47,630 nucleotides of DNA, taken from the NCBI GenBank assembly GCA_018267005.1, contig JAFDZK010000003.1:1-47630 (forward strand), read 5' to 3'. Position numbers and translations under genes: made by a program. Source of the stretch: Bacteroidota bacterium (GTDB lineage: Bacteria; Bacteroidota; Bacteroidia; Sphingobacteriales; Sphingobacteriaceae). The notes beneath the pieces were generated by a model. That model saw nothing but the letters and a program-made list of their open reading frames with translations. It ran no database searches and was not told the DNA's origin. Positions 34,683 through 47,630 of this stretch are shown piece after piece (position 1 is the stretch's first letter; each line of letters begins with the position of its first letter).

Positions 34683-35411
34683 ATGAAATACACGATCAAT
34701 CATAAAAGTCCTGTTCCCCTTCACATCCAGGCCGAGGAACTATTGCGGCAAATGATCCAGGATCCGGATTATAAAAGCGGAAAGATCCTGCCCAATGAGG
34801 TTGAGTTGTCGAAACAACTGGCCATTTCGCGAACCACGCTGCGACAGGCGATCAATAAACTTGTGTTTGAGGGACTGCTGATCAGGAAAAAGAAAACCGG
34901 CACCAAAGTAGCTGAGATACCCGTCAGTTCGAAATCCAATAATTGGCTAAGCTTTTCGCAGGAAATGAAGCTGCGGGGAATTACGATCAGGAATTTCGAG
35001 CTGCATATTACGTGGGTGAAACCTGATGACGAGGTGGCCCGGTTTTTCGAGATCAAAAAGGACAAAATGGTGCTGCGCATGGAGAAGGTACGCGGCCGGC
35101 CGGAAGAGCCATTCGTATATTTCGTATCGTATTTTCATCCGCGCATTGGGCTCACGGGGGAAGAAGATTTTTCGCTGCCTTTATACGAAATGTTGGAAAG
35201 CGAGCATTCAACCGTTGCAACTTTATCAAAAGAAGAGATCAGCGCACAAGCGGCAACGGCAGAGATCGCTAAAAAGCTGCGTGTAACCGAAGGCAGCCCG
35301 ATTCTTTTTCGAAAGCGTTTTGTGTACGATCACGGCCAGCGGCCGATGGAATTCAACCTGGGATACTACAAGGCCGACAGTTTTGTTTACACGGTTGAAA
35401 GCACGCGGTAG
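34683..35411 (+). CDS. GntR-family regulator, HutC/UTRA type
   Basis: The protein has 242 residues from the ATG at 34683. Residues about 10-75 form the GntR winged helix (PVPLHIQAEELLRQMI, ILPNEVELSKQLAISRTTLRQAINKLVFEGLLIRKK). The UTRA ligand-binding domain follows (about 90-240: WLSFSQEMKLRGI, VLRMEKVRGRPEEPFVYF, GSPILFRKRFVYDHGQRPMEFN). UTRA regulators sense sugar phosphates or related metabolites. It is divergent from the mannan operon and close to four ATGT-N4-ACAT palindromes, so it probably represses the locus until a mannose-derived signal appears. It is an unusual controller for a Sus-type locus, where hybrid two-component or sigma/anti-sigma systems are more usual. Confidence 0.9.
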   Translation: MKYTINHKSPVPLHIQAEELLRQMIQDPDYKSGKILPNEVELSKQLAISRTTLRQAINKLVFEGLLIRKKKTGTKVAEIPVSSKSNNWLSFSQEMKLRGITIRNFELHITWVKPDDEVARFFEIKKDKMVLRMEKVRGRPEEPFVYFVSYFHPRIGLTGEEDFSLPLYEMLESEHSTVATLSKEEISAQAATAEIAKKLRVTEGSPILFRKRFVYDHGQRPMEFNLGYYKADSFVYTVESTR

Positions 35412-35500
35412 GATTTAAAATCAGAAACTTAGTGGCTGAATTATTCCTTCAGGCAAAAACGACTAGTGCAACTTCATTAATTTAGGTCACCAAACATCTT

Positions 35501-37075
35501 TCACACCAGCTTTTGGCTACCTTCACGCGGGGGTTCGAATACCATCAGGTTCACCTCTTGGGACAAACGAGAAAAACCATCGTTTGTCCCTTTTTTATTT
35601 CTGTCCAACTTGCTGTTAATCAGGTATATCCAATTAAATATTTCGCTTTGTTTAGGAGTTCGACCTTTTAAATCCTCAATAGTGAACTTTTCAGGGTAAA
35701 TCGAACTCACAATTTTTCGCTTTTGATAATTATCTGAATTAGAATACATTGCCTGTAAATCTGTTAGCTTAAGCAGTGCCGAATCCAGCGTTTTCTCAAC
35801 CTCCGCTATTCCCATTTTGTTTACGTGCAGCTCGGCAATTTTGCATTCAAGCACACTTATTTCCCGCTCCGCTTCTACTTTCACCGCCCGAAAATCTGAT
35901 GCGTCAATGTCTTCATTCAATAACAGTTCCCTCGCCTTCGTGACCTTATTATTAAGGGCCGTAATGCGTCCAATGTACTGCTTACGTGTTTCACCTGTCT
36001 GCTGATGCTCTTTGCCGTATTCGTCGAGTATGGCTTTTTTAAACCAACTTGCAGTGACTTCATTCAATTCGTAATCCTGCAAATGCTCAATAAATAATTC
36101 GTTTGCCTGCACCGCGTTTTTGCGATAACCGCAACTAGATTTGCAATGATAATAGTGGATGTATTTAGTTTTACCTTTGGATGCGCTTCCTGTCAGCATC
36201 CTGCCGCATCTTGGGCAAATAATAGAGCCTTTTAAAGCCAGGATTTCTTCGGCCACGATCTTTGTAGTAGTTTTCCTTTTGCGCCCGTCAAGAACATCCT
36301 GAACCTCGTAGAAAACGGCAGGTGTAACAATAGGCTCGTGCAACCCGTCAACCGTATAGCTTTCTTCATTCTTTAATTTAGGAATAACGATCTTTCCCAT
36401 GTAGACCGGGTTCCGCAAGGCGTGCCAGAAATTATTTTTACTACAGGTTAGCCCTTTAACTTTTGCCTGACGCCAAATCTCTGCGATCGTGTGCTCACCG
36501 AGGCTCAACTCCTTGAATGCCCAAGTCAATATGGATGCAGTCGGTTCATTTGGCACGATGGTTTTCTTACCTCCTTCCTGTGTTTTGTTTTTATAACCGA
36601 TTGGTGCACTGGCCATCCACCGCCCTTCTTTACGCGCCCTGCGCATCCCATAAAATACATTTAAAGCCCTGCGGTCATTTTCAATTTCAGGCGCGGTCAG
36701 GTAAATGGCCAGCATCATTTTATTCTCCGGCACTTCCATATCAAGTGGCTGCTCAATGGCCTGGGGTTCTACGCCTAACTTTTTCAGCGTGGCGATCATT
36801 TGATATGCGTCCGGCGCATTCCTGCTAAAGCGATCCCATTTGGTGAACAATACCAGGTCCGTCTTATTCTTTTGCTGACGCAGGATGTTAAGCAGCTTTG
36901 TCCATTCAGGGCGAATAAATGTTTTTGCCGAATGATCTTCGAAAATGATTTTACGGACTTGAATCCTGTTGATCTCGCAATACTTTAATAATACCTCTTG
37001 CTGGCTGCGCTGAGAATAACCCTTGTCCGCCTGCTCATCGGTACTTACCCTGATGTATAAATCTGCTGTTTTCAT
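35501..37075 (-). CDS. Large serine recombinase (integrase of the mobile element)
   Basis: The protein has 524 residues. The resolvase catalytic domain (about 1-145) opens with DLYIRVSTDEQADKGYS, with nucleophile Ser11, and continues with LVLFTKWDRFSRN. The Recombinase domain (about 155-260) holds APIGYKNK and NPVYMGKIVIPK. A zinc ribbon follows with CPRCGRML and later HCKSSCGYRK (about 288-318), then a coiled-coil-like stretch (about 360-450). This is the standard layout of phage- and transposon-type large serine integrases. It lies at the left edge of the element, so the attachment site is probably between 35412 and 35500. The ATG overlaps the stop of a 54-residue gene. Confidence 0.92.
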   Translation of the reverse strand: MKTADLYIRVSTDEQADKGYSQRSQQEVLLKYCEINRIQVRKIIFEDHSAKTFIRPEWTKLLNILRQQKNKTDLVLFTKWDRFSRNAPDAYQMIATLKKLGVEPQAIEQPLDMEVPENKMMLAIYLTAPEIENDRRALNVFYGMRRARKEGRWMASAPIGYKNKTQEGGKKTIVPNEPTASILTWAFKELSLGEHTIAEIWRQAKVKGLTCSKNNFWHALRNPVYMGKIVIPKLKNEESYTVDGLHEPIVTPAVFYEVQDVLDGRKRKTTTKIVAEEILALKGSIICPRCGRMLTGSASKGKTKYIHYYHCKSSCGYRKNAVQANELFIEHLQDYELNEVTASWFKKAILDEYGKEHQQTGETRKQYIGRITALNNKVTKARELLLNEDIDASDFRAVKVEAEREISVLECKIAELHVNKMGIAEVEKTLDSALLKLTDLQAMYSNSDNYQKRKIVSSIYPEKFTIEDLKGRTPKQSEIFNWIYLINSKLDRNKKGTNDGFSRLSQEVNLMVFEPPREGSQKLV

Positions 37076-37891: not shown

Positions 37892-39355
37892 TTACAGGGT
37901 TGATGCCAGTACATGTTTTTGATGCACAACCTCTAACACCACAATCATTTCTTTTACCAAATCAGATAAAGCCAATACAGCCTTTGGATCACTTTCATAG
38001 TTGTCGCGATACCTTACATCAACATAAGCTCCTTTAAGTACATTAAACAGCTTCCTGTTTTCCTCATCCTCCAGATTAAATACAGCAGCAATGTCAGCCG
38101 TGAACATTTGCGTTAGTTTTAATAACCTTTCGAGGTTGTGCGTATTGATGTCGTACCCGGTAATAAACCGGACGATAGCAACAAGCAAACATTCTGCGGT
38201 TTGATTAAGGGAGAACAGCGCAGCATTGTATGCACCAATCCTCAGGTAATATCCTGCACCTTTTAAAAATTCCAGGCTTTGACTGTGCCAGCGTTGCCAT
38301 TTCCGGAATGCGATTTCTTTAACAAAAAAATAGTCAGCTTCCTTCTGTTTCGGTAATATCAGGCCTCCTGAAAGATAGATCACTGGGCAACCAGCGGCTT
38401 TTTTCAGGAACACATTTTTTTCATCTGTAGCCGTTATCAAACTGGCCGCATGATGCACCAGAATAAATACGTTTGCAACCTTCTTACAAGATTCTTCGAG
38501 ATGGTTGCTAATATCCTGTGCCAACCCTTGCTCGTTATTATCTGTCAGAACGAGCAAATAGATTGTTGCCTGCCCGGTTGGAGGTACACCCAAATAAAAA
38601 ACAGCTTGTACCGAGGGTGCCCTCTCTTTGATAATTGCCACAAGCTGACCTAACTGATCATGCTGGTCCGAAGTGATTATAGTATTGAGTTTGTATACCA
38701 CTGGTTCGGGTGTTTCGATGCGGGCGGGCTTTGAAGTACCATCGTTACTTTGAGCAATGTCATTGAGATATGGGTCACCAGACATACGCTGATGAATCAG
38801 GAATGCTGCACCATAGAGTTTTTGCAGATTTTCATACACAGCAATGATCTTAGAGGATTCCATCCATTTATCCGCTGACTGGTTGGATAAACCGCTTTCA
38901 AGCCACTCTTCCAATTGTTCACGATATTCCTGAAGGCTAAAACCGTTGAAAAATGCCTCGATCACAGCTAAAGGATTTATCAATTCCGCTTCGTTCAATA
39001 GCGTTGGAAAGTGCGACCAATTTTGTTTTTCGCATTCGAGTTGTTCCGCGTTTTTTGCCATAGATTGGCTATAGTGATGATACCCGTTCCTATAAGCGGC
39101 ATTGATCAGGTAAGAAGCTTCAACTAATTTGAGGTTGTTTTTATATGCCGTATATAAGCTAACAGGACTTCCCTTGGAGTCGACAAAAAAACTTGGCTCA
39201 AGGATAGCTTTTCGCCATTTATGCAGTTCCTCAATATGTTGCGGGAGCCACGCGGATGAAAAAAAGTCGTCCAAGACTTCTAAGGGATTTGCTATTTGCG
39301 CTGCTGGCAGGTTGATCGGCAGGTGCTCCCACTGGTTAAAAATAAGTTCTGACAT
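37892..39355 (-). CDS. Duplicated N-terminal module + nucleotidyltransferase-like + HEPN-like protein
   Basis: The protein has 487 residues from the ATG at 39355. Two similar modules lie at the front: NPLEVLDDFFSSAWLPQHIEELHKW (about 23-47) and NPLAVIEAFFNGFSLQEYREQLEEW (about 127-151). A middle region (about 220-340; LGQLVAIIKERAPSVQAVFY, TIYLLVLTDNN, VFILVHHAASLI) has the strand pattern of a minimal nucleotidyltransferase without its GSxxxG...DxD signature. The C-terminal part (about 355-480; SLEFLKGAGYYLRIGAYNAA, SLNQTAECLLVAIVRF) is HEPN-like. HEPN/nucleotidyltransferase pairs are toxin-antitoxin or defence modules; here both would be in one chain. The activity is unproven. It is divergent from the XRE gene. 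Confidence 0.65.
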   Translation of the reverse strand: MSELIFNQWEHLPINLPAAQIANPLEVLDDFFSSAWLPQHIEELHKWRKAILEPSFFVDSKGSPVSLYTAYKNNLKLVEASYLINAAYRNGYHHYSQSMAKNAEQLECEKQNWSHFPTLLNEAELINPLAVIEAFFNGFSLQEYREQLEEWLESGLSNQSADKWMESSKIIAVYENLQKLYGAAFLIHQRMSGDPYLNDIAQSNDGTSKPARIETPEPVVYKLNTIITSDQHDQLGQLVAIIKERAPSVQAVFYLGVPPTGQATIYLLVLTDNNEQGLAQDISNHLEESCKKVANVFILVHHAASLITATDEKNVFLKKAAGCPVIYLSGGLILPKQKEADYFFVKEIAFRKWQRWHSQSLEFLKGAGYYLRIGAYNAALFSLNQTAECLLVAIVRFITGYDINTHNLERLLKLTQMFTADIAAVFNLEDEENRKLFNVLKGAYVDVRYRDNYESDPKAVLALSDLVKEMIVVLEVVHQKHVLASTL

Positions 39356-39483
39356 AACCTTGTTTTTAATGCCTGGCTTTATTGACAGGCATTTCAAAGA
39401 AAATGCAGATATTAGCCGTACCGAACCACACGCAGTTGTACTTTACAAATCGCGGGTTGTTTCTTACATTTACAGAATACCAA

Positions 39484-39495: not shown

Positions 39496-39891
39496 ATGGC
39501 AAAGACTATACATATCGGACGAAAAATCAGCAGGATACGTGAATTACGCGGGATGAAGCAGGAAGCTTTAGCTTCTTTAATGGGAGTGAGCCAACAAGCT
39601 ATATCTAAAATCGAGCAAAGCGCAGAAGTTGAAGATTTAGCGTTAGAAAAGATCGCTCAAGCATTAGGAGTTACAGTCGACGCTATAAAGAATTTTAGCG
39701 AAGAGGCTGTAATTAATATTATTTCAAGCACGTTGCACGATAATGCAGGGTCAATTAATAATAATTGCACCTTGACATTTAATCCAATAGATAAATGGCT
39801 TGAGGTTATTGAGGAAAATAAAAAATTGTATGAGCGGCTTTTAGCAAGCGAACGCGAAAAGGTCGAGTTGCTGAAAAATCAAGCGAAATAA
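39496..39891 (+). CDS. XRE-family helix-turn-helix regulator
   Basis: The protein has 131 residues. Residues about 7-65 form a Cro/CI-type helix-turn-helix (IGRKISRIRELRGMKQEALA, LMGVSQQAISKIEQS, ALEKIAQALGVTVDAI). A variable middle follows, then a helical C terminus (IDKWLEVIEENKKLYERLLA) that probably dimerises. It is divergent from the HEPN-like gene with a gap of about 140 bases, so it may control that gene and itself. A terminator lies about 20 bases after its stop. Confidence 0.88.
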   Translation: MAKTIHIGRKISRIRELRGMKQEALASLMGVSQQAISKIEQSAEVEDLALEKIAQALGVTVDAIKNFSEEAVINIISSTLHDNAGSINNNCTLTFNPIDKWLEVIEENKKLYERLLASEREKVELLKNQAK

Positions 39892-40142: not shown

Positions 40143-41330
40143 TCACCTGGAGTTCGTGCGCGGATGATGCTTCCTCCGCCTGTTCCGTCCCAGAATAGCT
40201 TCATCGTCGATATCATCGCTAATAGCTATATCCGGTATTGGGTAAAAATTGTCCCCAGCTTCAACAGAACGTTCGTTCGCAGGGGTATAGTCGAAATCGA
40301 CTTCCGGCAGAAATTGAATGGCATCATCTAACTGCTGATTTTCATCGTTTGTGTTTCGCATTTTCTTACCATTCGATAGTTCTTCTTGAGTGTTAGGCGC
40401 GGTTAAATTGAACTTAGAGAGAGTATGTTTATTTGCTTCCGAAATAGCTGCGTTATCCCTTTCAGGATTGTAAGGAACATTTTTGATTAACTCCCACCAT
40501 TTAAACTGATTGCCTAATGCCTGACCTTTAGCCTTAAAATCTTTGAAGAAATAAGTAACGCCGGAAACTCTGCCTGTTGATGCCTGATTGAACAGAAAGT
40601 TTACGCCGGCTTTTTCTCCAATTCTGATGAAATCAGTTACCGATTTAGGCTTAAAACCTAATAATTGACTCAACACTTCCTGTAATAGCAATTTGTCGGA
40701 GACTTTTCCCTTTCTGCTCATCATCGCTATCTCGTCTCTGTTTACCCGACGAGTTACACCGTTATATTGTTTCCTTGCTATAACGATACCCTGATCTGTT
40801 CTTACAGTGTTCTTAAGTTCGAAAGATACACCGTTACTTGGTTTGAACGCTACAAACTTACTTTGCTCTACAGCTTTAAGGTTATATCGATATTCCAGGG
40901 CGCGCAGCACCTTTTCACTTTTCCTGTAATTGTTACTATCAGATATTACATTACCGTCAAAACCTATACGATTTACAAGCAAGTGGATATGTGGGTGACC
41001 CGCATCGTAGTGCCGGAAAATCATGTATTGATTGTTCGTAAAACCCATTGCAAACAGGTAATCCTCGGCAATAGCCTTAAGTTTTTCGTTGTTCAATGAT
41101 TGCAATTCCTCGTTAGAGAAATTCAAGCTGGTGTGATAGACATATCGCGAAAGATTAGGTCGCATTGCGCGTACTAGATTAACTTCCTTGCGAACAATAC
41201 CTTTCTCCAGAGAGGCAAAGTTGGTGGCCAGTAATTCAGCGCGAAGCCTTTGATCGGGATGGTAAAATTTATTCATATTGTAAAGAAAAGCTCCCATAAA
41301 GCTTTTACCGATCTTCTGGATTGCGATCAC
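40143..41330 (-). CDS. Relaxase / mobilization nuclease (MobB type)
   Basis: This is a conjugative relaxase that nicks the transfer origin. I start at the GTG at 41330, giving IAIQKIGKSFMGAFLYNMNK as the usual relaxase N terminus; the upstream 13 codons lie inside the mobC-like gene. That makes 395 residues. The metal-binding triad sits in FRHYDAGHPHIHLLVNRIGF (about residues 105-124, with HPHIH), and the catalytic Tyr should be near the N terminus. The C terminus is acidic then basic (GRNRRRKHHPRTNSR). It overlaps the accessory gene upstream by 26 bases, a usual arrangement. The element has no visible conjugation apparatus, so it is probably mobilized in trans. Confidence 0.9.
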   Translation of the reverse strand: MIAIQKIGKSFMGAFLYNMNKFYHPDQRLRAELLATNFASLEKGIVRKEVNLVRAMRPNLSRYVYHTSLNFSNEELQSLNNEKLKAIAEDYLFAMGFTNNQYMIFRHYDAGHPHIHLLVNRIGFDGNVISDSNNYRKSEKVLRALEYRYNLKAVEQSKFVAFKPSNGVSFELKNTVRTDQGIVIARKQYNGVTRRVNRDEIAMMSRKGKVSDKLLLQEVLSQLLGFKPKSVTDFIRIGEKAGVNFLFNQASTGRVSGVTYFFKDFKAKGQALGNQFKWWELIKNVPYNPERDNAAISEANKHTLSKFNLTAPNTQEELSNGKKMRNTNDENQQLDDAIQFLPEVDFDYTPANERSVEAGDNFYPIPDIAISDDIDDEAILGRNRRRKHHPRTNSR

Positions 41331-41661
41331 GAAGGAGAATTTTGATGATGAGTTGTTGCTGGTCTGCAAGCTTTAATAGCAGTTCCTTAATGCCTGTCGG
41401 CAAACGGCCTGAATTAGCGATACGGGTTAATTGGTTAAGGTTTACACCGATCCTCTTTAATTCAAGGTAAACCGCATGATCAATTTCTGATACAATGGTT
41501 TTCTGCACTCTGCCGTCCAGAATTTTCAACCGGCCATAGGCATAAGCTTTCAAGCCTTTGCTCTTAGCGACTTCTTCAACTGTTTTACGCTCTTCGGCGT
41601 TGAGCCTAATAATAAGCCTGTAGTTTTTTTTGGCATCAGCTGCCTTTCTTGGTCTTGCCAT
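41305..41661 (-). CDS. MobC-type mobilization accessory protein
   Basis: The protein has 118 residues and a very basic start (MARPRKAADAKKNYRLIIRL). It is followed by a ribbon-helix-helix pattern (NAEERKTVEEVAKSKGLKAY) and the C-terminal MobC segment (IDHAVYLELKRIGVNLNQLTRIANSG). MobC proteins help the relaxase open and bind the transfer origin. Its 3' end overlaps the relaxase start. Confidence 0.88.
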   Translation of the reverse strand: MARPRKAADAKKNYRLIIRLNAEERKTVEEVAKSKGLKAYAYGRLKILDGRVQKTIVSEIDHAVYLELKRIGVNLNQLTRIANSGRLPTGIKELLLKLADQQQLIIKILLRDRNPEDR

Positions 41662-42358: not shown

Positions 42359-45085
42359 ATGAATGCAGTTGAGATTGAAGAAGCTATTTCCTTATTAGCA
42401 GAGCAGCCTTTTGTGCCAGCTGAATTTCCGTATGCCTTCTTAGAAGCATTTGGTAACAAATCGACAACTATTAAACGCCTGCAAACCGGAAATAACAACA
42501 AATCCGATATCGAAAAGGGCGTACTGCAACATAACAATATCCATCTCGCCGTATGCGATGAAGGCAAGGTTGCCGAAACCCTTAAGAAGCTGAAAGAAAG
42601 CCCCACCACAACGAAGGCAAAAGCTAAATTTATTTTGGCTACGGACGGCGTTGAATTTCAAGCAGAGGACCTGAACAGCGGTGAAACTGTTGCTTGTGAA
42701 TATCCAAATTTTCATAATTACTTTGGATTCTTCCTGCCTTTGGCGGGCATTAGCACCGTCAAACAAATCCGTGAAAATGCTTTCGATATAAAAGCTACGA
42801 GCCGCCTTAACAAACTCTATATCGAATTGCTACGACATAACCCGGAATGGGCAACAGCGGAACGCCGCCATGATATGAACCATTTCCTGGCACGTTTGAT
42901 CTTCTGTTTTTTTGCAGAGGATACGGGTATCTTTACAAGCGATGGTCTTTTCACAGATACCGTGCAACAAATGAGTGCAGGTGATGCAACCGACACCCAT
43001 GAGATTATTGGTGAGATCTTTAGGGCGATGGACACAAAGCAGGAGGAACGCGTCGAAAAGAAAGTCAAAAATTGGGCCTATAAATTTCCGTATGTCAATG
43101 GACAACTATTTTCTGGATCGACTGAAACGCCAAAATTCACAAAAATAGCACGGTCGTACTTGCTTCATGTCGGTATTTTGGACTGGAAGAAAATCAATCC
43201 CGATATTTTCGGATCGATGATCCAGGCTGTGGCCGACGACGATGAACGCGGAGCATTAGGTATGCATTACACATCGGTGCCGAATATCCTAAAAGTGTTG
43301 AATCCATTATTCCTTGATGATCTTAGGGCGCAACTGGAAGAAGCAGATGGTAATGCTCGAAAGCTTCTAAACCTTCGCAAACGCATATCGCATATCCGTG
43401 TGTTTGACCCAGCTTGTGGGTCCGGCAATTTCCTAGTGATTGCTTACAAACAAATGCGGGAAATCGAATATGAAATCAACAAACTACGAGGGGAAAATAA
43501 TCTGCCAACAGAAATTCCACTAACCAATTATAGAGGGATTGAATTGCGGGATTTTTCTGCGGAAATTGCGAGACTTGCCCTTATCATTGCCGAATACCAA
43601 TGCGATGTACTTTATCGCGGGCAAAAATTGGCTCTGGCAGAATTTTTGCCGCTTAATTCAGAAAACTGGATTACTTGCGGCAATGCTCTAAGAATTAACT
43701 GGCTTTCAATCTGCCCGCCAACTGGGGTCGGAGTTAAACTTTATGCGGACGACTTATTCAGTACTAATCTCGCCCAATCGGAAATTGATTTCGAAAATGC
43801 AGGGGGTGAGACTTATATATGTGGCAATCCGCCTTATCTAGGTGGTAAAAAACAAGATCAATCGCAGAAACTTGATATGATATCTGTTTTTGGGAAAGAC
43901 TTCCCATATAAAAACCTTGATTATATCTGCGCTTTTTTCGAGAAAGCATCTCTTTATCTATCAAAATTTGATCGGGCTGCATTTGTAACTACTAGTTCTA
44001 TAAATCAGGGTTCGCATGTTCCAACATTATGGCCTCGTCTAATTCATCGAGGTATTTCCATTTTGTTTGCATACAAGCCCTTCAAATGGGCTAACAATGC
44101 AGCTAATAACGCCGGTGTATATGTAACAATTCTAGGGATCTGCAAAGAAAGGAAATGCTCGCCTGTAATTTATAGTGATGGTTTAAAGAGGGAGGTTGCG
44201 CATATTAACAGCTACCTTATTGCTGCTCCTGAAATCATTGTAGAGAAAGAAAGTCAGCCAATATCCAATATATCGAAGATCATTACTGGAAATGCCGCTT
44301 ATGACGCCCAACACCTCCGACTCACAGACTCAGAGGTAAATCTTTTAAAGAAAATTCCAGAATCTACCCAAATTATTAGAAGGATGGTAGGAACTTCGGA
44401 ACTGTTGACCGGAACCCCCGGCAAATGTCTATGGATAGATGACATTCATTTACAGGATGCACTAAAAATTCCTATTATAAGTGAAAAAATAGAAAAAGTG
44501 AAACTCTATCGCGAAAGTGGTGGAGAAGTTGCAAGAACGCTTGTTACTCGCCCGCACCAATTTCGATTTCGCAATGTGGCGAAAAGAAAACAAATAGTTG
44601 TACCACAAGTTTGCTCCGCGGAATTTAAGATTCTCCCTGTAGACCTTCTAGAACCCGATATCATTGTTACTCATCTTGCTCATGTGATGCTAGATCCTGA
44701 AATATATAATTTATCAATCATTAGCTCAAGATTACATTTTGCCTGGGCTTTGGCTTTATCTGGCAGGCATGGGGATGGTCTTCGATATGGTTCCAATCTT
44801 TGCTGGAATACCTTTCCAGTACCCTTACTAACAGAAAAAAATAAGGAAGACTTGACCTTATGTGCAGAAGAAATTCTAATTGCTCGTGAGAGGCATTTTC
44901 CAGCAACAATTTCTGAACTTTATAATTCGGAAGAAATGCCCGAGGATTTACAACTTGCCCATGACCGGAATGATGAAGTTTTAGAACGTATCTATATTGG
45001 CCGGAGATTCAAAAATGACACAGAACGCCTCGAAAAATTATTCGATCTGTATACTGAAATGACTATTAAAAGAAAAGCTGTATGA
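42359..45085 (+). CDS. Class I N6-adenine-type DNA methyltransferase (MmeI/YeeA-like)
   Basis: The protein has 908 residues. The gamma-class methyltransferase core is clear: GMHYTS (301-306), SAM-binding motif I FDPACGSGNF (349-358), and catalytic NPPY (490-493, CGNPPYLGGKK). The N-terminal about 300 residues (HDMNHFLARLIFCFFAEDTGIF at about 171-192) are of the MmeI/YeeA kind, but I see no D...ExK nuclease motif where type IIG enzymes carry one. The C-terminal about 400 residues include a target-recognition region (LKIPIISEKIEKVKLY) and SRLHFAWALALSGRHGDGLRY. It therefore looks like a modification subunit without its own nuclease. The stop overlaps the helicase start as ATGA. Confidence 0.88.
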   Translation: MNAVEIEEAISLLAEQPFVPAEFPYAFLEAFGNKSTTIKRLQTGNNNKSDIEKGVLQHNNIHLAVCDEGKVAETLKKLKESPTTTKAKAKFILATDGVEFQAEDLNSGETVACEYPNFHNYFGFFLPLAGISTVKQIRENAFDIKATSRLNKLYIELLRHNPEWATAERRHDMNHFLARLIFCFFAEDTGIFTSDGLFTDTVQQMSAGDATDTHEIIGEIFRAMDTKQEERVEKKVKNWAYKFPYVNGQLFSGSTETPKFTKIARSYLLHVGILDWKKINPDIFGSMIQAVADDDERGALGMHYTSVPNILKVLNPLFLDDLRAQLEEADGNARKLLNLRKRISHIRVFDPACGSGNFLVIAYKQMREIEYEINKLRGENNLPTEIPLTNYRGIELRDFSAEIARLALIIAEYQCDVLYRGQKLALAEFLPLNSENWITCGNALRINWLSICPPTGVGVKLYADDLFSTNLAQSEIDFENAGGETYICGNPPYLGGKKQDQSQKLDMISVFGKDFPYKNLDYICAFFEKASLYLSKFDRAAFVTTSSINQGSHVPTLWPRLIHRGISILFAYKPFKWANNAANNAGVYVTILGICKERKCSPVIYSDGLKREVAHINSYLIAAPEIIVEKESQPISNISKIITGNAAYDAQHLRLTDSEVNLLKKIPESTQIIRRMVGTSELLTGTPGKCLWIDDIHLQDALKIPIISEKIEKVKLYRESGGEVARTLVTRPHQFRFRNVAKRKQIVVPQVCSAEFKILPVDLLEPDIIVTHLAHVMLDPEIYNLSIISSRLHFAWALALSGRHGDGLRYGSNLCWNTFPVPLLTEKNKEDLTLCAEEILIARERHFPATISELYNSEEMPEDLQLAHDRNDEVLERIYIGRRFKNDTERLEKLFDLYTEMTIKRKAV

Positions 45086-47133
45086 CCGAAAGGAAAGCCA
45101 TACCAACTGTTACGGTAAATTATAAAAGCACCGGAAGATCGACAAAATCTAACGAGTTAGGTATGCGCGCAATGCAGGAACGCGCCTATGAAAAGCGCGG
45201 CGAACAATATTTGTTAATCAAGTCACCGCCGGCATCCGGCAAAAGCCGAGCTTTAATGTTTATTGCACTTGACAAGTTGCACAATCAAGGAATTAAGCAA
45301 GCTATTATCGCTGTACCTGAAAAGTCCATCGGTTCAAGCTTTTCGGATGAGCCGCTTACAAAATTCGGTTACTACTACGATTGGCACGTGAAACCAAAAT
45401 GGAATCTTTGCAACGCACCTGGTGAGGATGGTAGCAAAGTCAATTCGGTTAGGTCTTTCCTCGAAAGTGAAGACAAGGTATTGGTCTGTACACATTCAAC
45501 GTTTCGCTTTGCTATAGAGCGTTTAGGGGTTGAAGTTTTTGATGACCGACTGATCGCTATTGACGAATTCCACCATGTTAGCGCCGACGAAGGCAATGTG
45601 CTCGGGTCGCAACTCAAGCAATTAGTTACACGGGATAAAACGAATATCGTGGCCATGACCGGCTCGTATTTTCGTGGGGACGCAAACCCTGTCTTGATGC
45701 CGGAGGACGAAGCAAAGTTCGATACGGTTACTTATACATATTATGAGCAGCTCAACGGCTACGAATATTTGAAGTCGCTGAACCTAGGTTATTATTTCTA
45801 TAGTGGCGCTTATGCTGATGAGATTTTAAATGTTCTTAACCCGAATGAAAAAACAATCATTCATATACCGAACGTCAACTCTCGTGAAAGCATGGGTGAT
45901 AAAATAAAGGAGGTCGAGCATATTATTGAAGAATTGGGAAGCTGGCAGGGTATTGATCCTGCAACTGGCTTTCATTTGGTTAAAACGCTAGCTGGCAAAA
46001 TTTTGCGGATTGCCGATCTCGTGGAAGATGATGCGGCAAAGCGTAATAAAGTTTCTGCGGCATTAAAACTACCAGAAGCCAAAACTAACCGCGACCACGT
46101 TGATATTATCATTGCATTAGGCATGGCAAAAGAAGGTTTTGACTGGATATGGTGTGAACATGCACTAACCGTGGGTTATCGTTCGAGCTTGACAGAAATC
46201 GTTCAAATTATTGGGCGTGCAACCCGTGATGCACCTAATAAAACCCATGCTCGTTTCACAAATTTAATTGCTGAACCGGATGCTTCGGAAGGGGCTGTTA
46301 CGGATGCGGTAAATGACACTCTAAAAGCCATTTCTGCAAGTTTATTGATGGAACAAGTGCTGGCGCCAAGATTTAATTTTACACCGAAAAAACCGCAGAA
46401 CGGCCCGATAGAAGGTTTTGATTATGGAGAAGGAGGGTACAATCCAGACAAAGAGAATATAGGGTTTAATGAGGAAACGGGCCAGTTCCAGATAGAGATC
46501 AAAGGCCTTTCGATGCCAAAAAGCCCGGACGCACAGCGTATTTGCAAGGAAGATCTGAACGAGGTGATCGCAGCTTTCGCACAGGACAAACAAACCATTG
46601 AACGCGGTCTGTTTGATAAAGAAGTTGTACCACAAGAGTTGACCCAAATACGGATGGGAAAAATAATTAAAGAGAAGTATCCGGAATTGGATCAGGAGGA
46701 TCTGGAGGCCGTTCGGCAACATGCCATTGCGGCGCTGAACCTGACCCAGAAGGCAAAAGAAACACTGAATAAGGATGATGAATTAAGCAGTCGTGGGAAT
46801 ACAGCCCTGATTGATGGAATACGTAGATTTGCCATGGATGTGCGAGATCTTGATGTAGATTGGATTGACAGCATTAATCCATTTAGTGAAGCTTATGCTA
46901 TTTTATCCAAATCAATGACGGAGCAAAGCTTAAAAGCTATGGCAGAAGTCATTTCAGGTAAAAAACCGAATATTTCACTAGAAGAAGCACGGGAACTTGC
47001 GAAACGGGCTCTGAAGTTTAAGAAAGAACGGGGTAGATTGCCGGAAATCAAATCTGCTGACCCATGGGAACAACGCATGGCCCAGGGTATTGCCTTCCTT
47101 GCCCGTATAAAAGCTGAAGAAAAGAATGGCTGA
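45082..47133 (+). CDS. SF2 helicase/ATPase of a restriction-like system
   Basis: The protein has 683 residues. Motifs are Walker A SPPASGKS (48-55), the DExH box DEFH (161-164), motif III TGSYF (193-197), and motif VI QIIGRATRD (375-383), so it is an active-looking superfamily 2 DNA translocase or helicase. After the motor (to about 420) comes a region of about 260 residues without recognised domains. Its end (KERGRLPE, 648-655, then WEQRMAQGIAFLARIK) resembles the N-terminal segment of the next protein. It resembles motors of type I/III restriction systems but lacks their nuclease. The start overlaps the methyltransferase gene by four bases, and the end overlaps the next gene by eight. Confidence 0.88.
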   Translation: MTERKAIPTVTVNYKSTGRSTKSNELGMRAMQERAYEKRGEQYLLIKSPPASGKSRALMFIALDKLHNQGIKQAIIAVPEKSIGSSFSDEPLTKFGYYYDWHVKPKWNLCNAPGEDGSKVNSVRSFLESEDKVLVCTHSTFRFAIERLGVEVFDDRLIAIDEFHHVSADEGNVLGSQLKQLVTRDKTNIVAMTGSYFRGDANPVLMPEDEAKFDTVTYTYYEQLNGYEYLKSLNLGYYFYSGAYADEILNVLNPNEKTIIHIPNVNSRESMGDKIKEVEHIIEELGSWQGIDPATGFHLVKTLAGKILRIADLVEDDAAKRNKVSAALKLPEAKTNRDHVDIIIALGMAKEGFDWIWCEHALTVGYRSSLTEIVQIIGRATRDAPNKTHARFTNLIAEPDASEGAVTDAVNDTLKAISASLLMEQVLAPRFNFTPKKPQNGPIEGFDYGEGGYNPDKENIGFNEETGQFQIEIKGLSMPKSPDAQRICKEDLNEVIAAFAQDKQTIERGLFDKEVVPQELTQIRMGKIIKEKYPELDQEDLEAVRQHAIAALNLTQKAKETLNKDDELSSRGNTALIDGIRRFAMDVRDLDVDWIDSINPFSEAYAILSKSMTEQSLKAMAEVISGKKPNISLEEARELAKRALKFKKERGRLPEIKSADPWEQRMAQGIAFLARIKAEEKNG

Positions 47134-47630
47134 AAAAAAAATACTTACAGACGAAGATGATGCACTTTTGGAGGAACTCGGAATCGAGATTGAGGCCAGG
47201 AAAGTTGCACGCTACAACGCGCGTGAGGAACGGATAATCGCCGGTTTTGAAGTAATCCAAAGATTTGTGAAAGAAAAGGGCCGCTTACCGGAGCACGGTG
47301 AAGATAAAGATATTTTTGAGCGGTTGTATGCAGTTAGACTTGATCAAATCCGCAAACAGCCGGACTGTACAAACCTTTTAAAAGAAATGGATCATCAAAA
47401 ACTTTTGGATGGTAATTATACACCAGAAATGGAAATTCCAGATGATTTAGATGACGATGAATTGCTATTGCAACTGGGTGTAAATGAAAATGAAGAGAAT
47501 TCCATTACAAACCTGAAATATGTAAAATCTCGTGCAGAAAAAAACGCAGCCGAAGAAATCGCCAACCGTACTCGCTGTGAAGACTTTGAGCGATTTAAAC
47601 CTCTATTTGAGGCCGTAAAAAAAGATATTG
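47126..47630 (+). CDS. Third gene of the methyltransferase-helicase set (partial; possible GIY-YIG nuclease)
   Basis: The ATG at 47126 lies inside the helicase end; the frame is open to the window edge (168 residues visible). Visible features are an acidic opening DEDDALLEELGIEIEARKVA, KEKGRLPE (49-56) followed by FERLYAVRLDQIRK as in the helicase C terminus, an acidic stretch DDLDDDELLLQLG, and ITNLKYVKSRAEKNAAEEIA then FERFKPLFEAV. From memory, proteins with this type of N terminus beside such methyltransferase-helicase pairs continue into a GIY-YIG/T5orf172 nuclease domain, but that part lies beyond the window. The product is named tentatively. Confidence 0.7.
   Translation, partial: MAEKKILTDEDDALLEELGIEIEARKVARYNAREERIIAGFEVIQRFVKEKGRLPEHGEDKDIFERLYAVRLDQIRKQPDCTNLLKEMDHQKLLDGNYTPEMEIPDDLDDDELLLQLGVNENEENSITNLKYVKSRAEKNAAEEIANRTRCEDFERFKPLFEAVKKDI

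Follow-up and report, generated by a model that had tools for sequence, protein, structure and literature searches.

Three co-directional genes occupy the right-hand end of the window, which is the whole stretch of DNA analysed here (47,630 bases). All three are in-frame open reading frames on the + strand, spanning 42359-45085 (908 aa), 45082-47133 (683 aa) and 47126 to the end (168 aa, open). The first two overlap by 4 bases (ATGA) and the last two by 8 bases (ATGGCTGA), as stated in an earlier sequence-only reading of this DNA. The window is a complete contig of a 598-contig assembly, so the third gene, already recognized as incomplete at the edge, is truncated because the assembly breaks off at position 47,630, however the window had been chosen. 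When the genome was searched with a profile, no further piece of the third protein turned up elsewhere. Dozens of independent genomes show the same order of genes and the same overlaps, which excludes a chance origin.

The genes are preceded by a region of distinct composition, in which GC content drops from ~0.50 to ~0.41 at ~34-35 kb of the GC profile. This low-GC region encodes a large serine recombinase, the probable integrase of the element (35501..37075, −; Pfam Resolvase and Recombinase), a MobA/VirD2-type relaxase (40143..41369, −; Pfam Relaxase E 6.9e-32) and a MobC/NikA-like mobilization protein (41305..41661, −; Pfam). Given this combination ahead of the cluster, the data fit an integrative mobilizable element on which the cluster rides and whose far end lies past the contig; the set is thus mobile-element cargo, as had been proposed. 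The probable left edge of the integrated element is located at 35411-35501, between a GntR/UTRA regulator gene and the serine recombinase gene, and no tRNA was found in the window as an integration site. The element also carries a HEPN-domain protein of 501 aa (37892-39397, −; Pfam HEPN 6.5e-12) and, divergent from it, an XRE-type regulator (39496-39891, +), which could form a further defence or toxin-antitoxin-like pair. Such an element is not a constant companion of the cluster, since the same-genus locus L096 has no MobA-type relaxase beside its cluster and among same-genus loci only L097 has a MobA-like neighbour.

The first protein (42359..45085, +) is a DnmA/YeeA-type gamma-class m6A DNA methyltransferase (MTase) of the MmeI family. 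According to Pfam, it comprises in order an N-terminal domain (MmeI_N, E 1.2e-33), a helical spacer (hel, 1.9e-26), the MTase (1.3e-102), a target recognition domain (TRD, 2.3e-55) and a C-terminal bundle (C, 4.5e-16). The motifs FDPACGSGNF and NPPY are present, and MmeI itself (5hr4, E 2.9e-120) is the only close solved structure in the PDB. The cutting site of MmeI is formed by D70...E80-M81-K82, and alanine at any of three positions abolishes cleavage (PMC4833311). Its counterpart in the window, identified by alignment with canonical MmeI-type proteins, consists of residues 49-64 (42503..42550, +; SDIEKGVLQHNNIHLA) and contains no E.K. All 68 homologues examined share ‘IH’, 65 of them ‘NIH’, and none has an aligned D...ExK. 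The same region in canonical relatives from other genomes resembles IDLLWKGxILIEMK, and the D..ExK that these relatives carry is absent from residues 1-160 of the window protein; the register of the lost ExK differs between alignments and is uncertain by two residues. Because the aligned site lacks the motif that canonical relatives display, the N-terminal domain is, as read from this alignment, retained yet nuclease-dead, in line with the initial description of an MmeI-type gamma-MTase without D...ExK. A hidden PD-(D/E)xK site in this region was rejected by comparison with the canonical relatives; a nuclease fold there had been named as a finding that would speak against the proposed division of labour. 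Four regular-expression matches to D..ExK among the 68 homologues lie at differing, non-aligned positions.

The second protein (45082..47133, +) is a YeeB-type SF2 (DExH) motor, recognized by Pfam DEAD/ResIII, by its invariant motifs and by Foldseek. Walker A SPPASGKS, DEFH, TGS and QIIGRATR are invariant in 20 homologues and Pfam detects no nuclease domain, in agreement with the first description. The AlphaFold model is of low confidence (pLDDT 60) and too weak for firm fold assignment; used in Foldseek, this modest model points to SF2 helicases, among them HsdR of EcoR124I.

Of the third, YeeC-type protein, the N-terminal 168 residues are visible (47126..47630, +), and they share 84% identity with the start of a complete same-genus protein of 402 aa (L096). 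YeeC homologues are ~400 aa long, and the complete ones examined end in a T5orf172/MUG113 (that is, GIY-YIG) domain with Pfam E values of ~1e-11 to 1e-13, in which Y276, G298, R307 and E339 are invariant in 21 complete homologues. In view of the identity to a complete homologue of this type, the window protein almost certainly ends in the same domain, which would lie beyond the assembly; such an ending had been expected in the earlier reading. The AlphaFold model of YeeC (pLDDT 72) is again of low confidence and too weak for firm fold assignment, and its best structural matches, KOW/eIF5A-like, are little informative. Among open-licence papers, no report of biochemical cleavage by YeeC was found. 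A short helical motif, F..ExGRLPxx..D..ER.A, is shared by the C terminus of YeeB (46945-47130) and the N terminus of YeeC (47213-47398). With hhalign E values of 0.0026 for chosen segments and 0.01-0.07 for whole profiles, the statistics are suggestive only, and the motif may be a module for contact or for binding DNA.

Scanning 84,980 species genomes with the helicase yielded at least 565 confirmed relatives, of which the best 80 were kept. These 80 come from Bacteroidota, Proteobacteria, Nitrospirota and others, with motor identities of 72-91%. The YeeC gene directly follows the motor gene in 80/80 loci, most often with an overlap of exactly 8 bases, and an MTase lies upstream of the motor in 74, or in 75 counting L012, in which it was missed solely through an alternative start codon. 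Five or six of the 80 have no MTase in the stretch read, several of them at contig ends. The motor is also matched by 264 plasmid records, 118 of them conjugative; the two plasmids opened show the order MTase-helicase-GIY-YIG, with the MTase of one annotated in two pieces. Divergent homologues of the whole set exist in the same genus and are ~48% identical to the window motor. Relatives adjoin SIR2-HerA, DRT3, PDC-S06 and other defence genes, and in some loci the YeeC gene is directly adjoined or overlapped on its downstream side by genes for SIR2-HerA, a DRT3a reverse transcriptase and PDC-S06 (for example, L049:10250-11530, L059:8492-11807, L044:10249-11595 and L034:10271-12877).

The association of the motor and YeeC with the state of the MTase has been examined in a sample in which MTases were chosen by the MmeI_N domain alone, irrespective of their neighbours, in same-genus and same-phylum genomes. 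This sample spans the score range, and 26 MTases were read with their surroundings, two of which (L137 and L139) end near a contig edge; the MmeI_N search also matches the B. subtilis control genome. YeeB and YeeC accompany all nine nuclease-dead MTases and none of the 17 canonical MmeI-type MTases with D..ExK. The regular expression for this motif missed or mis-registered it in three of the 17, which were read by eye. If the samples were independent, the probability of such a partition would be ~3e-7 (1 in C(26,9)); they are not fully independent.

Comparison of individual domains reveals where the set varies. Between the window and L096, the N domain is 91% identical, the spacer 93%, the C domain 87% and the motor 94%, whereas the TRD (residues 623-823; 44225..44827, +; delimited by MmeI_TRD) is only 32% identical and finds its best match, at 62%, in an alphaproteobacterial copy (L042). 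To judge from these domain-wise identities, the TRD of the window MTase is swapped. Specificity would then be exchangeable without altering the motor and nuclease, and since the TRD changes while they do not, the MTase may be taken to guide both. In MmeI, base 6 of the target is set by a residue pair, E806/R808 specifying C:G and K806/D808 specifying G:C (PMC4833311). Across the 68 homologues, the corresponding pair is E-R in 23, K-D in 22 and R-D in 19. In the window MTase it is G-G, a pair for which we know of no specificity rule.

Identification of the three genes as a DnmA-YeeB-YeeC (yeeABC) cluster on an integrative mobilizable element is virtually certain. Such dnmA-yeeB-yeeC clusters have been described in B. 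subtilis by Nye et al. 2020 (PMC7261158) and in a 2023 mBio paper (PMC9973331). As cited in both, Morgan 2009 had found MmeI homologues that lack the endonuclease motif and are followed by yeeB and yeeC, and had made a ‘Type I-like’ proposal; Makarova 2011 is cited there for defence islands. The suggestion that the layout was new is not supported, and the match to an already named system, which had been listed as grounds for abandoning it, is precisely this one. PADLOC v2, recommended in the earlier reading, assigns the first gene to type IIG and lacks a good model for either of the other two. The cluster is widespread, with at least 565 relatives and its many plasmid records, yet only its first gene is modelled there.

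What the cluster does is disputed, being negative for restriction in B. subtilis and positive in Vibrio, as cited in PMC9973331. We consider it probable that the set restricts DNA in an ATP-dependent manner under guidance of the MTase, motor and cutter being separate chains. The MmeI-type protein would find an asymmetric site through its TRD and methylate one adenine; at an unmethylated site it would instead recruit YeeB into a complex, YeeB would travel along DNA with ATP, and YeeC would cut through its GIY-YIG domain. Chain 1 would thus hold modification and recognition, chain 2 translocation and chain 3 cutting, a division of labour like that of types I, ISP and III in which the usual motor-nuclease subunit would be split in two. 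This reading is favoured by the presence of YeeB and YeeC with the sampled nuclease-dead MTases and not with the canonical ones, by a full MmeI domain set devoid of D..ExK, by a TRD that differs beside a constant motor, by the alternating base-6 residue pairs, by the linkage of the three genes among the best 80 relatives, by the invariance of GIY-YIG residues and motor motifs in homologues, and by defence-gene neighbours and presence on many plasmids.

The need for a motor can be rationalized. MmeI-family enzymes modify a single strand only, according to the title of Morgan 2009 as cited in PMC7261158. Such modification leaves one replication daughter unmodified. Type III enzymes solve this unmodified-daughter problem by requiring two inversely oriented sites and movement along DNA. 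A motor would fit the same need, as it could let the enzyme compare two sites and so spare freshly replicated host DNA.

Experiments on relatives weigh on both sides of the restriction mechanism. Against it counts the B. subtilis locus, where deletion of dnmA leaves transformation unchanged and deletions of dnmA, yeeB or yeeC leave the plating of three phages unchanged (PMC7261158, PMC9973331); in its favour counts V. crassostreae, in which deletion of dnmA or yeeB increases phage sensitivity, as cited in PMC9973331. The authors of the B. subtilis studies call the locus a relic, and the missing phenotypes together with an effect of DnmA on how some genes are expressed (PMC7261158, PMC9973331) would be explained if the MTase were an orphan regulatory enzyme and motor and nuclease no longer functional. 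As an account of the window, this is unlikely: all visible motifs are intact, the motor is highly conserved across phyla with invariant motifs among the best 80 relatives, gene order is strictly kept and the TRD is swapped beside a constant motor. Moreover, YeeB and YeeC of B. subtilis lack C-terminal stretches found in the V. crassostreae proteins (PMC9973331). For testing, an intact, highly conserved relative is preferable to the copy in B. subtilis, and guidance by the MTase could be probed directly through the swapped TRD.

Exclusion of the BREX/Pgl kind, in which an MTase-guided motor would block phage replication without cutting and YeeC would mainly bind DNA, is similarly improbable. 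The MTase core is weakly similar to PglX/BrxX, and T5orf172 has been described as a largely uncharacterized domain whose predicted functions involve DNA binding (PMC9973331); however, the catalytic GIY-YIG residues are invariant in the 21 homologues, no BrxL, BrxC or PglZ match occurs among the neighbours examined, and BREX MTase models reach 31-38 bits at best, compared with cut-offs of 400-900. Least probable of all is that YeeB and YeeC form a defence pair of their own that senses its target independently and has simply been inherited together with an MmeI-type MTase protecting the host. This might be suggested by the MTase-motor junction that takes inserts, by the never-broken motor-YeeC junction among the best 80, and by the five or six loci lacking an MTase in the stretch read (some through contig end). 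Against it, the MTase is upstream in nearly all of these 80, YeeB-YeeC were sampled with nuclease-dead MTases only, and TRD exchange would demand a matching partner change, of which none was seen.

The inserts just mentioned define an accessory slot between the MTase and motor genes. In 34 of 74 loci from the best 80 of at least 565 relatives, these genes are separated by more than 150 bases, nearly always containing a co-directional gene (for example, L032:4456-6998, L065:5175-6866 and L015:6582-7004). The slot gene usually begins inside the final 4 bases of its MTase neighbour. By single-linkage clustering, slot genes form 21 unrelated families, which include RhuM/PDC-S05, PDC-S67, PDC-S42 and DUF1016/PDC-S02, one protein each of the HEPN, Schlafen-AlbA/HATPase and DUF3800 types, and a second, weak match to T5orf172. 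In L052 (5276-6826), the slot has an additional opposite-strand gene of 516 aa. The slot is empty in the window, and the motor-nuclease junction is uninterrupted in all of the best 80 loci. Among open-licence papers, none was found that treats this slot. A tentative extension of the restriction mechanism, which we regard as rather doubtful, is a modular platform with a fixed motor-nuclease core, an MTase of swappable specificity and an MTase-motor port for a single accessory gene drawn from many unrelated ones (RhuM, DUF1016, PDC families, HEPN, Schlafen-AlbA and possibly a second GIY-YIG), probably back-up effectors, the motor comparing two head-to-head unmethylated sites.

Each known system shares part of this architecture. 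BREX and DISARM likewise combine a helicase with an adenine MTase of the PglX/DrmMI superfamily, but the window set has none of their other components: its partner genes match no BREX model and, for DISARM, a DrmMI-like superfamily match to the MTase stands alone, the other two proteins matching no Drm partner. Type I, type ISP and type III systems also associate an MTase/recognition subunit with an ATP-dependent SF2 motor; unlike them, with motor and PD-(D/E)xK nuclease in one chain, the set has a predicted separate GIY-YIG nuclease protein. Nor does it follow the type I scheme of an HsdR motor with nuclease and a separate HsdS, as Pfam shows no nuclease in the motor, and MTase and TRD share one chain. 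From MmeI (type IIL, 5hr4) it retains the spacer, gamma-MTase, TRD and C-terminal domains, with recognition and modification on a single chain; MmeI, however, cuts in cis, whereas the window protein has lost this site and is followed by two further genes, so that MTase and PD-(D/E)xK nuclease are not united in one chain as in types IIL and IIG. The closest agreement is with dnmA(yeeA)-yeeB-yeeC of B. subtilis and V. crassostreae, in the three genes and their order, the nuclease-less MmeI-like MTase, the SF2 helicase immediately downstream and the protein with C-terminal T5orf172, the last predicted for the window from homologues, as well as in the location of such clusters on mobile or defence-rich DNA. 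Compared by description with those two sets, the window belongs to another subgroup, highly conserved and differing in its TRD, and is a fresh copy of a described anti-viral gene set.
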